The notes beneath the pieces are model-generated. The model made no database searches and was not told the DNA's origin. It was given only the letters and a program-made list of their open reading frames with translations. 25,134 nt of DNA. Source: a virus. This document shows, in pieces, positions 5,330 to 18,386 of this stretch. The stretch is taken from the IMG/VR virus record IMGVR_UViG_3300040770_000556, positions 1-25,134 of that record; one strand, given 5' to 3'. Made by a program: the position numbers and the translations under genes. Numbering within the stretch: position 1 is the stretch's first letter; the number at the start of each line of letters is the position of its first letter.

Positions 5330-5504
5330 ACGTAAGTTTTTTTAAGGTTACCCGTAAACTGCTAAAGGCGTGAGTAATACACCTATTTGGTGTATTACTC
5401 ACGCCTATGTTAAAACGGTTTTGTGGCCGAGACAGGGTCTCTTTAAATCTCTGTATGTCTTGTAAAATAGGCATTCTTCTATTTTGTTGGGTAGTTTGTG
5501 GGAA
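5281..5504. other. Candidate attP region with integrase arm-type repeats
   Basis: Two same-orientation copies of TTGGGTAGTTT(TG)TGGGAA lie at 5281-5299 and 5487-5504, differing by one base insertion and about 206 bp apart. Between them are an 18 bp perfect inverted repeat (5366-5406) and, read on the minus strand from 5441 to 5423, GAGACCCTGTCTCGGCCAC. The latter looks like the 3' end of a tRNA (T-stem half plus acceptor strand), the usual core for tyrosine integrases. Repeated arm sites flanking a core beside int are standard attP organisation. The core identification is inference. The GAGAC/GTCTC self-complementarity of the same bases is a possible alternative explanation. Confidence 0.45.
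5366..5406. repeat. 18 bp perfect inverted repeat upstream of integrase
   Basis: AGGCGTGAGTAATACACC at 5366-5383 is exactly complementary to GGTGTATTACTCACGCCT at 5389-5406, with a 5-nt TATTT loop. It has no U-tract, so it is unlikely to be an ordinary terminator. It lies about 37 nt upstream of the first integrase ATG, within the likely leader. It could be a dimeric operator, an excisionase/integrase site or an mRNA hairpin limiting integrase expression. Confidence 0.85.
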
Positions 5505-11981: not shown

Positions 11982-12457
11982 AAGCATTATTTATAGCATT
12001 GTTCCCAATGATGATGATGGCGCAAGGCTTTCATGTAAAAGATTCAGAAGATTTCACGCTTTCTGTAATTACTGATCCTAGAGCTTCATTTAAAGAAGGT
12101 GGTTTGTTTATAGGTGCTGAGATTGAATATTCAGGAGCTGTATACACGAGGGTAGGTATTTCAAACTTTGCAGTACTGAAGGATGGATATACGGAGTTGA
12201 TTGGAGGAATTGGAGTGAACTTCTCCAGTGGTTACTTTGACACGGTTCGATATTATACCGGTATAAGACTAGGAGTAATAAAAAGACAAGCAGGAAATGC
12301 CACCGCTGGATTAGAAGCAGGAATTGATTTTAAAATTACTGACAATCTTTTTATAGGAATGCGAGCCACTTATGACTATCGATCCGACTTTAAGTTTTAT
12401 GATTACCCAAACGAAATGCGAGGCAGTGGCTATTTAAGAATAGGAACTAAATTTTAA
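11978..12457 (+). CDS. Secreted beta-barrel-like outer-membrane protein
   Basis: A 159-aa protein starting at 11978 (ATGA overlap with the upstream stop). A longer in-frame start at 11918 would be an N-terminal extension lacking a signal sequence. Residues 1-16 (MKALFIALFPMMMMAQ) form a signal peptide ending in the AQ typical of Bacteroidota. The rest alternates polar and hydrophobic residues with Gly turns (ELIGGIGVNFSSGYFDTVRY; LGVIKRQAGNATAGLEAGI) and ends in a YLRIGTKF strand, as in small outer-membrane barrels. A surface protein at the end of a phage early operon could alter a host receptor (superinfection exclusion), which is inference. No named family is recognised. Confidence 0.6.
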   Translation: MKALFIALFPMMMMAQGFHVKDSEDFTLSVITDPRASFKEGGLFIGAEIEYSGAVYTRVGISNFAVLKDGYTELIGGIGVNFSSGYFDTVRYYTGIRLGVIKRQAGNATAGLEAGIDFKITDNLFIGMRATYDYRSDFKFYDYPNEMRGSGYLRIGTKF

Positions 12458-12473
12458 GAAAAAATAAGAAAAT

Positions 12474-12677
12474 ATGAAAACAATTTATTTTCAACCTAAA
12501 GGAATTAAGCCTCAATATTGTGAGATAGGTATGATTTTAGAAATGGACCCCGAGTACATCCAATATTTAGATGAGCCTTGCAAAATAGCAATTAGTGAGG
12601 TTAAAATCATTGACAAAGAAAACGTAACGTATAATAAAAAAAATAGGTTGTATTATGTTAAGACCGATGCTCAGTAA
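12474..12677 (+). CDS. Small ORF of cassette 1, unknown
   Basis: A 67-aa protein (MKTIYFQPKGIKPQYCEIGM...), beta-rich with a Cys and several aromatic residues. No family is recognised. It ends one base before a 130 nt imperfect palindrome with attC-like ends. Together they look like one mobile gene cassette. It lacks an attC-like palindrome upstream, so it would be the first of the array. Confidence 0.5.
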   Translation: MKTIYFQPKGIKPQYCEIGMILEMDPEYIQYLDEPCKIAISEVKIIDKENVTYNKKNRLYYVKTDAQ

Positions 12678-12678
12678 T

Positions 12679-12817
12679 CTTGCTGATAACGGAAGGTTGC
12701 TTGGCATCTGTTGCCGATAACGTGAACGTGAATCGAAGAAATAAACATCAAAATTACCAGCGAATTTTCCGCTGAAAAACTAAACGGCAATAGTGCCAAA
12801 CAACTGTTATAAGCAGG
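12679..12817 (+). repeat. attC-like imperfect palindrome A
   Basis: The left arm (12679-12715) begins CTTGCTGATAACGG and runs to GGCATCTGTTGCC. The right arm (12786-12817) is GGCAATAGTGCC then AACTGTTATAAGCAGG. The arms are complementary over most positions with several unpaired bases. AAC (12688-12690) and GTT (12806-12808) sit 121 nt apart end to end, as the core triplets of R'' and R' would. A small inner hairpin CAGCG/CGCTG lies in the loop. It starts 1 nt after the preceding stop and ends 7 nt before the next ATG. Confidence 0.55.
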
Positions 12818-12824
12818 TTTAATT

Positions 12825-13118
12825 ATGATACTAAACGGACTAGCAAAATTAAAATTTTTAAAATGGTTTTCTAAAGAAAAATGGATGACAGGTTTTGAAG
12901 ATAAAGACCCAATAATACAAATATTTTTAATCAATGAATGGTTTGGAACGGTTGGGTACAAAATATCAATTATTTCAAGGTATATTAAAGATGATTTCGG
13001 ATATATTGTTTCAACAAACGAAGGAGAGTTTTATAAATATGGAATTAAAACGAGAATTGAAGCTGATAATTTAGCAATAGAACGAGCAACCGAAGATTAT
13101 AACGAACGTAACTCGTAA
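12825..13118 (+). CDS. ORF of cassette 2, unknown
   Basis: A 97-aa protein. Residues 1-20 form a basic hydrophobic helix (LAKLKFLKWFSKEKW). The remainder is mixed alpha/beta with many aromatics (IFLINEWFGTVGYKISIISR) and a polar acidic C-terminal helix (ADNLAIERATEDYNERNS). No family is recognised. It is flanked on both sides by attC-like palindromes A and B, so it would be a complete cassette (about 12807-13251 by the G^TT rule). Confidence 0.55.
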   Translation: MILNGLAKLKFLKWFSKEKWMTGFEDKDPIIQIFLINEWFGTVGYKISIISRYIKDDFGYIVSTNEGEFYKYGIKTRIEADNLAIERATEDYNERNS

Positions 13119-13120
13119 AC

Positions 13121-13256
13121 TTGCTTATAACGGCGGATAATTGTATTAGTAGCGTGCCGAAATCACTAATAAATACTGAAACAAAACCAGTTGTTAAGTA
13201 ATCCTTAACAACTCAAATAATCACTAATAAAGCTATTGATACAATTATATGTTAAC
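13121..13256 (+). repeat. attC-like imperfect palindrome B
   Basis: It begins TTGCTTATAACGGCGG, almost the same as the start of palindrome A, 3 nt after a stop codon. A 17 bp arm pair (13137-13153 and 13232-13248; 15 Watson-Crick plus two G/T pairs) encloses a 10 bp perfect hairpin AGTTGTTAAG/CTTAACAACT (13189-13213, loop TAATC) and a 13 nt direct repeat AATCACTAATAAA (13161, 13219). AAC (13129-13131) and GTT (13251-13253) span 125 nt. Confidence 0.55.
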
Positions 13257-13278
13257 AATAGTACTTACACACAAAATT

Positions 13279-13500
13279 ATGACAACAGATACTTACATCA
13301 ACGAAAACAAGACATCCACTTTTAAAAAAGGAGACACAGTAGTAATGCACTCTTGCGGTGAAGCGAATTTTTACAAAGGTAAAATATGGAAGTGCCAAAC
13401 AGATAGTTATTTAGATAGAGGGAAGCAAGAGGTTGTTTTTATTGAAGGATTTAGCGGTTGCTTTTCTGCTAAATATCTTCAACGAGTACATACGTCATAG
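13279..13500 (+). CDS. ORF of cassette 3, unknown KOW/SH3-like
   Basis: A 74-aa protein. The start at 13279 (MTTDTYINENKT) is preferred over an in-frame ATG at 13249, because that ATG falls within palindrome B. Residues 15-35 (FKKGDTVVMHSC) resemble an SH3/KOW-type opening strand, followed by YKGKIWKCQTDSYL and EVVFIEGFSGCFSAKYLQRV, a pattern seen in many short uncharacterised Bacteroidota proteins that probably form a small barrel. Three or four Cys are present. It is flanked by palindromes B and C. Function unknown. Confidence 0.5.
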   Translation: MTTDTYINENKTSTFKKGDTVVMHSCGEANFYKGKIWKCQTDSYLDRGKQEVVFIEGFSGCFSAKYLQRVHTS

Positions 13501-13590
13501 TATTATTGTTAACGGAAACGGCTATCATAAGGCAGCCTACGTACAAAATACTTTTCGGCTGCTTGATGATAACCGATGTTATATTCTCGT
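13501..13590 (+). repeat. attC-like imperfect palindrome C
   Basis: Directly after a stop codon. TGTTAACGG leads into CGGCTATCATAAGGCAGCC (13519-13537), complementary with a few unpaired bases to GGCTGCTTGATGATAACCG (13557-13575), followed by ATGTTATA. AAC (13511-13513) and GTT (13578-13580) span 70 nt, close to the short end of attC sizes. The next start codon is about 40 nt downstream. Confidence 0.55.
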
Positions 13591-13620
13591 TGCTTTTTTA
13601 ACACTATTAAATTAAATAAA

Positions 13621-14007
13621 ATGATAACAAAAAAAATATTAGAGCAAATGCAATCTCAATTAGAGATTATGGATAATCATAGAAAATATTATGAGAATCA
13701 ACAAATAACTTCCATTTTAAAATACTTTGGCATTCCTGAAAATAAATCTGAAAATATTAAAAGCATATCTGATTATTTGGAATTTGATATTATTTCAATC
13801 TTTACGCCAAGTTCTGTATTTGAAACTATTGATTTTTCTAAATTATTTCTTCCTGAAAAAATAAAATTCATATCAAATTATAACAATGGGAATTGGATTA
13901 TTATGGGACAAAATAGAAAAGATATGAAGTCTATTACAATAGAATTTGATAGTAATGAAAATCATAGGTTATATTCTTTTGGGCGTTCCAACAGCAATGG
14001 AATATAA
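13621..14007 (+). CDS. ORF of cassette 4, unknown
   Basis: A 128-aa protein. The ATG at 13621 is preferred because an earlier in-frame ATG at 13576 lies within palindrome C. A Gln-rich N-terminal helix is followed by mixed alpha/beta, with a C-terminal strand-loop-strand (NYNNGNWIIMGQNRKDMKSI; YSFGRSNSNGI) resembling a small immunity or SMI1-type ending, though no family can be asserted. Its stop overlaps a TATAAC sequence, but no palindrome follows, so the array would end here or be degraded. Confidence 0.5.
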   Translation: MITKKILEQMQSQLEIMDNHRKYYENQQITSILKYFGIPENKSENIKSISDYLEFDIISIFTPSSVFETIDFSKLFLPEKIKFISNYNNGNWIIMGQNRKDMKSITIEFDSNENHRLYSFGRSNSNGI

Positions 14008-14041
14008 CTACTCAATAACATCAATATAAAATAGTATACCT

Positions 14042-14287
14042 ATGGAAACACCAATAAACAAAAGCAAAGTAGAATTAACCAAAGGTTTTATTTATGATAA
14101 ATACCAAGCGCGTGAGCTCTCTTGTGATGATTTAGTAGAAATTATTATACTGCTGTTTACATTGCTTAATTTCAAAACAATTAGCGAGTACGCTAAACAA
14201 GTTGGAAAAACATACAGCGGTGTAGAGAGGTACTGTAAGGACATAAAGCATGTCAATCAATTTAAGTTTGTAAAGGATAACGAATAA
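14042..14287 (+). CDS. Small protein with possible HTH, unknown
   Basis: An 81-aa protein. Residues 30-75 have a helix-turn-helix-like arrangement: DDLVEIIILLFTLLNFKTIS, then EYAKQVGKTYSGVERYCK, with a K-T-Y-S-G-V-E-R-Y recognition-helix candidate. This suggests a DNA-binding regulator or recombination adaptor. It starts 34 nt after the last cassette ORF and precedes a terminator by about 80 nt, so it may be the final gene of the early/cassette transcript. No family is recognised. Confidence 0.55.
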   Translation: METPINKSKVELTKGFIYDKYQARELSCDDLVEIIILLFTLLNFKTISEYAKQVGKTYSGVERYCKDIKHVNQFKFVKDNE

Positions 14288-14364
14288 TATAAGCCATGAA
14301 ATAGTCAACCACACCCAAAGCGGGTATTATAGAAAATTAGCTATTCTGCGAGATAGCCGCTTAT

Positions 14365-14402
14365 AAGCAATCAGTGAACAATAGTAGCTGGTTGCTTTTT
14401 TG
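14365..14402 (+). terminator. Rho-independent terminator
   Basis: AAGCAATCAG (14365-14374) pairs with CTGGTTGCTT (14388-14397) over 10 bp with one G/T pair and a 13 nt loop, and runs into a T-tract. It closes the plus-strand transcript before the gene-free stretch. Confidence 0.8.
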
Positions 14403-14522
14403 TTTGTAAAAACGCCAGCATCACGTAACAGCAAACAAATGCCGCTAACGGATGGTAATTAAAAATAACTACTCACAGTGGTAAATATAAAAAGGGTGCA
14501 GCACTGTGGTTCCATAGCTTCC

Positions 14523-14674
14523 CCCCCGCTCCCCCAAAGCGAATATTATCAACAAAATGTGGATCAGTGGAGTTGTTGATCAGTAAACCAACCTAATAAT
14601 TAGCGTAATGATCTAAATAGATAAAAAATAATTCTCAGAATTATTTTTTTTTGGAAATCCCCCGCACCCCCAAA
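14523..14674. repeat. Paired C-tract repeats
   Basis: CCCCCGCTCCCCCAAA at 14523-14538 and CCCCCGCACCCCCAAA at 14659-14674 differ at one base and are 136 bp apart. In so AT-rich a genome these are striking. The opposite strand carries four runs of five G in total. Confidence 0.8.
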
Positions 14675-15992: not shown

Positions 15993-16033
15993 GTAAAATT
16001 GTATCGTTAATAATACTAACGATACAATTTTAC
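15993..16033. repeat. 17 bp perfect inverted repeat at protease start
   Basis: GTAAAATTGTATCGTTA (15993-16009) and TAACGATACAATTTTAC (16017-16033) with a 7 nt loop. It ends three bases before the apparent TTG start of the protease gene and has no U-tract. In mRNA it would form a hairpin beside the start codon. As DNA it could be a dimeric operator. Confidence 0.9.
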
Positions 16034-17387: not shown

Positions 17388-18386
17388 ATGTCAGTAAACA
17401 TAGATCAGGTTTTAGAAGAAACTAAAAAGTTCGCAGCGCAAAACCCAACGGTTTTAAATGCAGCGGTAATGTCTAACGAAATTGTATTGAACAGATTCGC
17501 CAAATTGATCCCAAGAATTCGTGGAGAGTTTGCCTCTGTAAATTCAGTTATGGGACATGTTGTACAAGCATTCGCTCCTACATGGACTGAAACTGCAGAT
17601 GTACAGTTTAGAGGGAAGCAGTTGAAAAACTACCACCAAAAAGTAAATTTTGCTTTTACTCCAGCCGAAATTCTTGGTTCTTGGATTCAGCAAAAATACG
17701 ATGAAGGTGTTGAGTTGAAAGACAAAACAATCTCTAAGCACGTAATGACAATGCTTACAGCAAAAATCATTAGTGATGTGAATATTCTTTCAGTAAAAGG
17801 AATTTACAACGCAGCAACTCCTACTGTTTTTGGTGCGTCAATGGATGGTTTGAATAGAATCCACACTGCTTTGTTAGCCAACACAGATAATCCATGTTTC
17901 AAGATTGAAACAGATGCCATCACAGATTTGAACATCCTTGATGTTGTGCTTGACTTTGAAAAAGGAATTCCAGAGCAGTACAAGTCAGCGATCAAAGATC
18001 TTAAGATGAGTGTTACTAATGCTCAGAACTACAAATTGCTTTATGAAGATTTGTACGGTAAAAATACTGATTACAAAGGGGATAAAGGAATGCGTACTCG
18101 TTTAGGTGAGCGTACAATCATTGCGGTTCCTAACATGGCAAATGATAAGATCGTTGCTACCCTTGACGGTAACTTTGTGAGAATGATTGATGTGGTGGAA
18201 AATCCTGCAACAATCACTGATGTTCAAAAATTAGATTACAAAATCAAAGTTTTTGGAGAGTTCACGCTAGGTTACGACTATGCAGTGAATGAGTTAGTAT
18301 TAATGAATACTTCTGCAGTATTAGCAATTAAAGGTTTAGGAAACGCTGCCTTGAATGCATTGTACTACCCAGAAGAAAACCTTTAA
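17388..18386 (+). CDS. Major capsid protein (HK97-like, inferred)
   Basis: A 332-aa protein 10 bp after the protease/scaffold gene, the standard place for the major head protein. It starts with a helical segment (DQVLEETKKFAAQNPTVLNA), continues with a possible E-loop/beta region (QFRGKQLKNYHQKVNFAFTP), and ends in a P-domain-like region with basic, conserved-looking turns (KDLKMSVTNAQNYKLLYEDL; RTRLGERTIIAVP) and IKVFGEFTLGYDYAVNEL. Length and the protease/scaffold-capsid order fit an HK97-fold capsid protein. I cannot name a specific capsid family from sequence alone. Confidence 0.75.
   Translation: MSVNIDQVLEETKKFAAQNPTVLNAAVMSNEIVLNRFAKLIPRIRGEFASVNSVMGHVVQAFAPTWTETADVQFRGKQLKNYHQKVNFAFTPAEILGSWIQQKYDEGVELKDKTISKHVMTMLTAKIISDVNILSVKGIYNAATPTVFGASMDGLNRIHTALLANTDNPCFKIETDAITDLNILDVVLDFEKGIPEQYKSAIKDLKMSVTNAQNYKLLYEDLYGKNTDYKGDKGMRTRLGERTIIAVPNMANDKIVATLDGNFVRMIDVVENPATITDVQKLDYKIKVFGEFTLGYDYAVNELVLMNTSAVLAIKGLGNAALNALYYPEENL

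Follow-up and report, generated by a model that had tools for sequence, protein, structure and literature searches.

The locus examined here raises the question of what a run of small, co-directional ORFs separated by imperfect palindromes might represent in a phage genome. It lies in a linear virus contig of 25,134 bases from IMG/VR, which was analyzed whole (hereafter, the window) and which carries primase/helicase, phage-type integrase and other phage genes. A preliminary description had interpreted the run as an attC-like cassette array without an integrase (CALIN) in a phage, and for this contig that interpretation held. The ORF stops at 12677, 13118 and 13500 and the three AAC..GTT palindromes were confirmed, as were the shared openings, the unpaired bases in the arms and the differing loops, and with three sites in 0.9 kb the locus meets the CALIN criterion of two or more attC sites separated by less than 4 kb and without an integron integrase nearby. 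The identity of these sites as attC rests on structure and not on a published attC model. Here we propose that the block is likely (with a probability of about 0.8) the cassette array of a phage-borne integron-like system, recombination itself being untested. The features of the block are as follows.

12474..12677, + strand: ORF of 67 aa located 5' of the first hairpin, without Pfam or PHROG match
12688..12808, + strand: attC-like hairpin A, AAC to GTT, 121 nt, the 5' part of the attI-distal cassette; stem begins after 5 unpaired nt on the left and 1 on the right
12825..13118, + strand: cassette ORF 1, 97 aa, no family match; cassette unit 12688-13131
13129..13253, + strand: attC-like hairpin B, AAC to GTT, 125 nt
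13279..13500, + strand: cassette ORF 2, PHROG 32066 (E 4e-25); cassette unit 13129-13513
13511..13580, + strand: attC-like hairpin C, AAC to GTT, 70 nt
13621..14007, + strand: cassette ORF 3, 128 aa, no family match, with a 61% relative in locus L252; cassette unit 13511-14008
14006..14041, + strand: attI-side junction (AAC TACT...), at the place of the relatives' attI-like stretch (AAC followed by TACTATATGTAA)
14042..14287, + strand: ORF of 81 aa, occupying the place of the recombinase gene of the related phage L004

The window hairpins share their openings (AACGGAAG, AACGGCGG and AACGGAAA, the hairpins themselves all opening with AACGG), have unrelated loops, and leave 5 nt unpaired after AAC in the first arm and 1-2 nt before GTT in the second. 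Across the phage loci, the main cluster of hairpin lengths is at 121-129 nt and minor ones are near 46, 70 and 84 nt; the stems are more than 90% paired at most of their first eight positions with a nearly random base sequence. The hallmark of attC sites, imperfect palindromes that keep their AAC/GTT cores and their fold while diverging in sequence, is thus present. The canonical boxes are seldom met, RYYYAAC by 6 of 145 R'' boxes and GTTRRRY by 7 of 145 R' boxes. The suggestion in the preliminary description that a divergent attC class is involved was only partly upheld: GTTRRRY is indeed rare and the R arm exceeds 7 bp, but the asymmetry of the hairpins (5 against 1-2 unpaired nt) was discarded as the mark of a new class because arrays of true IntI integrases show it as well.

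A property that the preliminary description had missed is the complementarity between the two ends of each cassette, which constitutes a signature of integron cassettes. A generic repeat search identified GTTATAAGCAGGTTTA at 12806 as the reverse complement of TAAACTTGCTTATAAC ending at 13131 (12806-12821 and 13116-13131, cassette 1), and GTTAACAATAGTACT at 13251 as that of AGTATTATTGTTAAC ending at 13513 (13251-13265 and 13499-13513, cassette 2). Cassette 3 pairs GTTATATTC (13578-13586) with GAATATAAC (14000-14008), and since it ends at the AAC of 14006-14008 with its own complementary ends, the fourth ORF of the run, which had not been recognized as such, is also a cassette. The first ATG of cassette ORF 2 is at 13249; a start at 13279 is likelier, judging from the DNA of its relative in locus L245. 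The 67-aa ORF that precedes the array terminates in TTGCTGATAAC, which is cassette-end-like in form, and lacks a matching hairpin in front; it could be either a resident gene or a decayed distal cassette.

Our cassette chain builder selects for complementary ends, and the use of chain-selected ends as evidence of complementarity was accordingly dropped as circular. The analysis was redone with hairpins alone, detected without using the cassette ends, which removes this bias, and requiring complementarity in at least 6 of 7 bases at positions 4-10. Under these terms, complementary cassette ends are found in 66 of 83 neighbouring pairs, as opposed to 2 of 83 across the hairpin. Hence, the pairing belongs to the cassette and not to the flanks of the hairpin, and it fits the notion, inferred from sequence alone, that the functional site would form once the cassette is a circle. 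Phage cassette ends show ten pairs, a conserved mismatch at position 11 (on the coding strand, G at the 5' end and T at the 3' end) and then 3-4 further pairs; the window cassettes keep the T in three of three cases and the G in two of three. The position 11 mismatch reads as G.T on one strand and C.A on the other, a possible mark of the recombined strand.

Taken individually, such palindromes are weak evidence. Of 1,639 random AAC positions from the viral loci, 63 (about 4%) pass the one-cassette test, and single attC-like palindromes were for this reason abandoned as proof in favour of chains; single cassettes remain less certain than arrays. The window yields a chain of three linked cassettes with a score of 71, and in 300 dinucleotide shuffles no more than one cassette and no score above 22 were obtained. 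It could be argued that the hairpins are merely transcription terminators or attenuators between small phage genes, as suggested by their location between co-directional genes. This explanation appears very unlikely and is contradicted by the data: no terminator-like structure is found on the gene strand in 12400-14500, all five lying on the opposite strand, and terminators would leave the AAC/GTT cores, the end-to-end complementarity, the exact breakpoints and the associated recombinase unexplained. No Rfam match was found in 12001-14400. Elsewhere in the window, three stretches (5366-5406, 14623-14649 and 15993-16033) match their own reverse complement at 93-96%, as detected by blast against the near-identical copy L002; these are likely terminators or other palindromes and lie outside the array.

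Evidence that the block is made of exchangeable units comes from related phages. A search with the primase retrieved four close relatives, and the stretch at 11.9-14.5 kb is replaced in those that differ. The phage L004 (89% in the primase) carries an array of its own, composed of three cassettes with other genes and followed by a 267-aa tyrosine recombinase (17418-18221). In L003, one cassette ORF remains together with a recombinase remnant of 23 aa, and L005 has neither cassette array nor recombinase at the island. Two much more distant phages, L009 and L010, present a 44% identical recombinase, the attI-like site and six cassettes; since they were found through the primase, they are independent of the recombinase search.

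The clearest boundaries are those of a 1,012-bp cassette (93% identity) that occupies the fifth place from attI in L029 and the first in L048. Its homology starts at TAAC^GGATGG (the caret marks the boundary), which is the start of the hairpin, and stops at GATAAC^, beyond which L029 continues into the next hairpin and L048 into attI. Therefore, the unit is a hairpin plus the ORF behind it, and the assignment of each hairpin to the preceding ORF in the preliminary description is incorrect. The body of window cassette 2 is likewise 86% identical in L245 (4000-4265), bounded at GTT/AAC and with homology ending exactly at AAC, and its hairpin is not conserved there though the body is, an observation that we cannot explain. 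Both cases satisfy the integron feature of cassettes moving as units with core breakpoints. The fixed-block check on related phages upholds the CALIN reading, for the block is replaced and the shared cassettes break at AAC/GTT. Structure, cassette identity, breakpoints, linkage and orientation are thus established by sequence comparison. A different view would hold that a block of small genes is swapped by homologous recombination at short repeats, without site specificity, and gene replacement is indeed concentrated at this island in the phages concerned. This seems very unlikely, because the hairpins are unrelated outside 3-4 core bases and offer little homology at which to recombine, and because shared cassettes cease to be homologous at the core base.

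The preliminary description was also right that the window has no integrase of the integron type: no IntI exceeds the cut-off in it, the only match being to the C-terminal part of an unrelated phage integrase. What holds for the window does not hold for the system, for L004 and about 80 viral loci encode a related recombinase (the L004 enzyme has at least 80 relatives in viral contigs). At least one cassette is present in 40 of the 48 recombinase loci examined, for a total of 142, and five of the eight cassette-less loci have less than 1 kb of upstream DNA. The viral recombinase loci are surrounded by terminases, portals, head genes and primases. In the window, the place of the recombinase gene is taken by the 81-aa ORF, a relative of which (37% over 57 aa) is also found 3' of a cassette in L245 (4298-4519). 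These small related ORFs lie directly after arrays without a recombinase there and are possibly DNA-binding.

The recombinase itself is XerA-like. Its best family model is NF040815 (XerA), at 180 bits and below the cut-off of 220, and the IntI model TIGR02249 matches it in two stretches with 138 bits against a cut-off of 265. In the 14 genomes reached via relatives in chromosomes or MAGs, the IntI model aligns at best over its positions 2-179 and 237-315, and no IntI exceeds the cut-off in these same recombinase-bearing genomes. The part specific to IntI (profile positions 180-236) is missing, and the criterion of integron membership based on this domain is not met. The catalytic R, K, H-x-x-R, H and Y residues are conserved and the criterion of a compact tyrosine-recombinase fold is met. 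A maximum-likelihood tree of 90 sequences places IntI in one clade (100/100) and Xer in another, with the phage enzymes outside IntI and on one side of a branch with 86/51 support, a core of 26 rows reaching 99/96. The nearest solved sequences are XerA (4a8e, 5hxy) and then IntI4 (2a3v); in a Foldseek search with the AlphaFold model (pLDDT 88.5, pTM 0.67), XerA gave the best E-value and DNA-bound IntI4 the highest TM-score among the listed matches (0.75). The closest known enzymes by sequence are thus archaeal XerA and bacterial XerC-XerD (PDB 4a8e, 5hxy, 1a0p). Xer enzymes resolve chromosome dimers at dif and, to our knowledge, are not known to run cassette arrays. That the phage recombinase acts on the sites described here is an inference, with neither a recombination experiment nor reads of excised circles to support it.

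In most viral loci, an attI-like AAC followed by TACTATATGTA (stretch TACTATATGTAA) is located 52-53 nt before the recombinase ATG, and the sequence that precedes this AAC varies from contig to contig. A conserved stretch with variable DNA up to its AAC has the appearance of an insertion site, an interpretation that again derives from sequence alone. The integron feature of an attI beside the integrase gene, with arrays ending there, is hence met in the recombinase-bearing relatives. Scanning the viral contigs with the attI 16-mer produced 42 matches, 13 of them with a recombinase nearby and the rest apparently due to chance. The attI-side junction of the window has only TACT in common with this stretch and is a weak match, a weak remnant at best. 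This weak match, the absence of a recombinase from the window and the failure of the tree to group the recombinase with IntI are among the points that can be raised against our main reading.

Related enzymes are also found in bacterial chromosomes. The genome scan detected one close relative of the recombinase (79%) in a Flavobacterium MAG and many recombinases of about 40% identity, mostly in Bacteroidota. An array was detected in about 27 of 80 chromosomal loci, usually starting 40-160 bp after the recombinase stop, and these arrays (loci L101-L179) reach up to 12 cassettes, as in L141 (10957-20193) and L152 (10855-20074). Many other chromosomal contigs end shortly after the recombinase, as might be expected from assembly breaks at arrays. 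The Bacteroidota arrays (L141, L151, L152, L157 and others) share the hairpin type with those of phages, and their attI-like junctions and core resemble the phage one. Nonetheless, they follow the recombinase gene and their ORFs read away from recombinase and attI (101:9 in the 24 loci examined), whereas phage ORFs point towards attI (131:4) and do not meet the integron criterion of ORFs reading away from it. The direction is therefore reversed in phages relative to both attI and the hairpin asymmetry. A plausible reason, by inference, is that cassettes in phages have to become part of an operon whose transcription comes from outside the array.

These figures bear on a further alternative, according to which the locus is a plain CALIN: host integron cassettes captured via a host IntI or by illegitimate recombination, with no system owned by the phage. 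Several observations favour it. Virulent phages are known to carry attC sites, and in 2023 Qi et al. (PMC9892861) reported attC sites, CALINs and integron components in 21 phages, including Polaribacter phage P12002L, whose sites were found with tools built on known attC/IntI models and of which one of two tested recombined at attI1 under IntI1. The sites of P12002L, a phage without the recombinase, fit our detector, and the direction is reversed there too. In addition, true IntI is common, being present in 84 of the 296 sampled genomes of the phylum to which the Flavobacterium genome G009 belongs, where two true-IntI loci show the classical orientation and the same hairpin asymmetry. As general background, a survey of complete RefSeq genomes with IntegronFinder 2.0 listed one complete integron in Bacteroidetes proper (PMC9024848). 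Against a plain CALIN, the phage recombinases form one clade apart from IntI, each with an attI-like site at a fixed distance, the orientation is reversed in phages and not in hosts, and only a few of the phage cassette proteins have a relative among those of the chromosomal loci that were examined. On balance we regard this alternative as unlikely.

A phage-borne integron-like system is thus preferred, and its resemblance to class 1 and Vibrio chromosomal integrons is considerable. In both, a cassette is an ORF with an imperfect palindrome, the AAC/GTT cores are conserved, the breakpoints are compatible with G^TT, the cassette ends are complementary, the insertion site is fixed by the recombinase gene and the hairpin occupies the attI-distal end of the cassette. 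The phage system differs in its XerA-like recombinase without IntI profile positions 180-236, in an R arm of about 10 bp instead of 7 bp (with the conserved G/T at position 11 and 3-4 further pairs), in rarely meeting GTTRRRY, in ORFs that read towards attI, and in an array located 5' of the recombinase and co-directional with it. With the phage elements of PMC9892861 it shares attC-like arrays, methylase cargo and, in one instance, a phage of Flavobacteriia hosts, but we found there no description of a dedicated non-IntI recombinase that has an attI-like site of its own. The open-access literature that we searched holds no account of a dedicated non-IntI phage recombinase, of an attI-like site or of the reversed direction. 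The novelty of these three elements is provisional, because preprints and subscription papers were outside the search.

In the mechanism that we propose, each cassette is a discrete unit with self-pairing ends, an attC-like hairpin followed by one small ORF, and sequence comparison shows cassettes beside different neighbours, with breakpoints at AAC/GTT. In relatives, the array is closed by a fixed attI-like site immediately upstream of the XerA-like tyrosine recombinase. This enzyme may recognize the hairpin of a cassette in circular, probably single-stranded, form and insert the cassette at that site, or else join two hairpins and excise the cassette. The cassette ORFs, lying in the direction of the phage operon, would be expressed from an upstream phage promoter, and the predicted benefit is a supply of small genes that can be exchanged, many of them directed against host defences. 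The recombinase gene of the window would have been lost or replaced, in which case its cassettes are frozen or movable only in trans.

The cargo lends some substance to this payoff. Most of the 115 phage cassette ORFs have no Pfam match, and those that do include N6/N4 methylases (5), C5 methylases (3), Mom (2), PAPS-reductase-like proteins (2) and Acb2/Tad1 (1). The latter is a cassette ORF of L004 (17022-17315) that has a C-terminal match to the Acb2/Tad1 hairpin domain, with 31 bits against a cut-off of 27. Acb2/Tad1 proteins act against CBASS and Thoeris. Judging from family function, most of the Pfam-matched cargo would counter restriction or CBASS/Thoeris. PADLOC returned nothing on eight cassette or neighbouring ORFs, and no assignment could be made for the three cassette proteins of the window beyond PHROG 32066, a family of unknown function.

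Integrons are known as devices by which bacteria capture genes, and their integrase depends on an additional domain for acting on folded single-stranded sites. A bolder reading, towards which we lean by a narrow margin, is that a second integron lineage exists without IntI, in which XerA-like recombinases devoid of the domain specific to IntI use an attI of their own to capture attC-type cassettes in Bacteroidota chromosomes and many phages, the direction being reversed in phages so that genes join the operon and the arrays serve as an exchangeable counter-defence store. If this is true, the existence of a system whose recombinase does without that domain is relevant to the origin of integrons from Xer recombinases. 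Phages could then exchange anti-restriction and anti-CBASS genes site-specifically, some hypervariable phage loci would be explained, and the reading of cassettes would provide a search route for new counter-defence genes. Overall, these viruses appear to build up a collection of genes, several directed against host defences, in the way that bacteria use integrons to accumulate resistance genes. As a minor observation, the recombinase genes of L021 (5684-6484) and L022 (369-1169), located beside an array, are both interrupted at codon 28 by an identical in-frame stop, and such a broken gene might constitute a second case of an array losing its enzyme.
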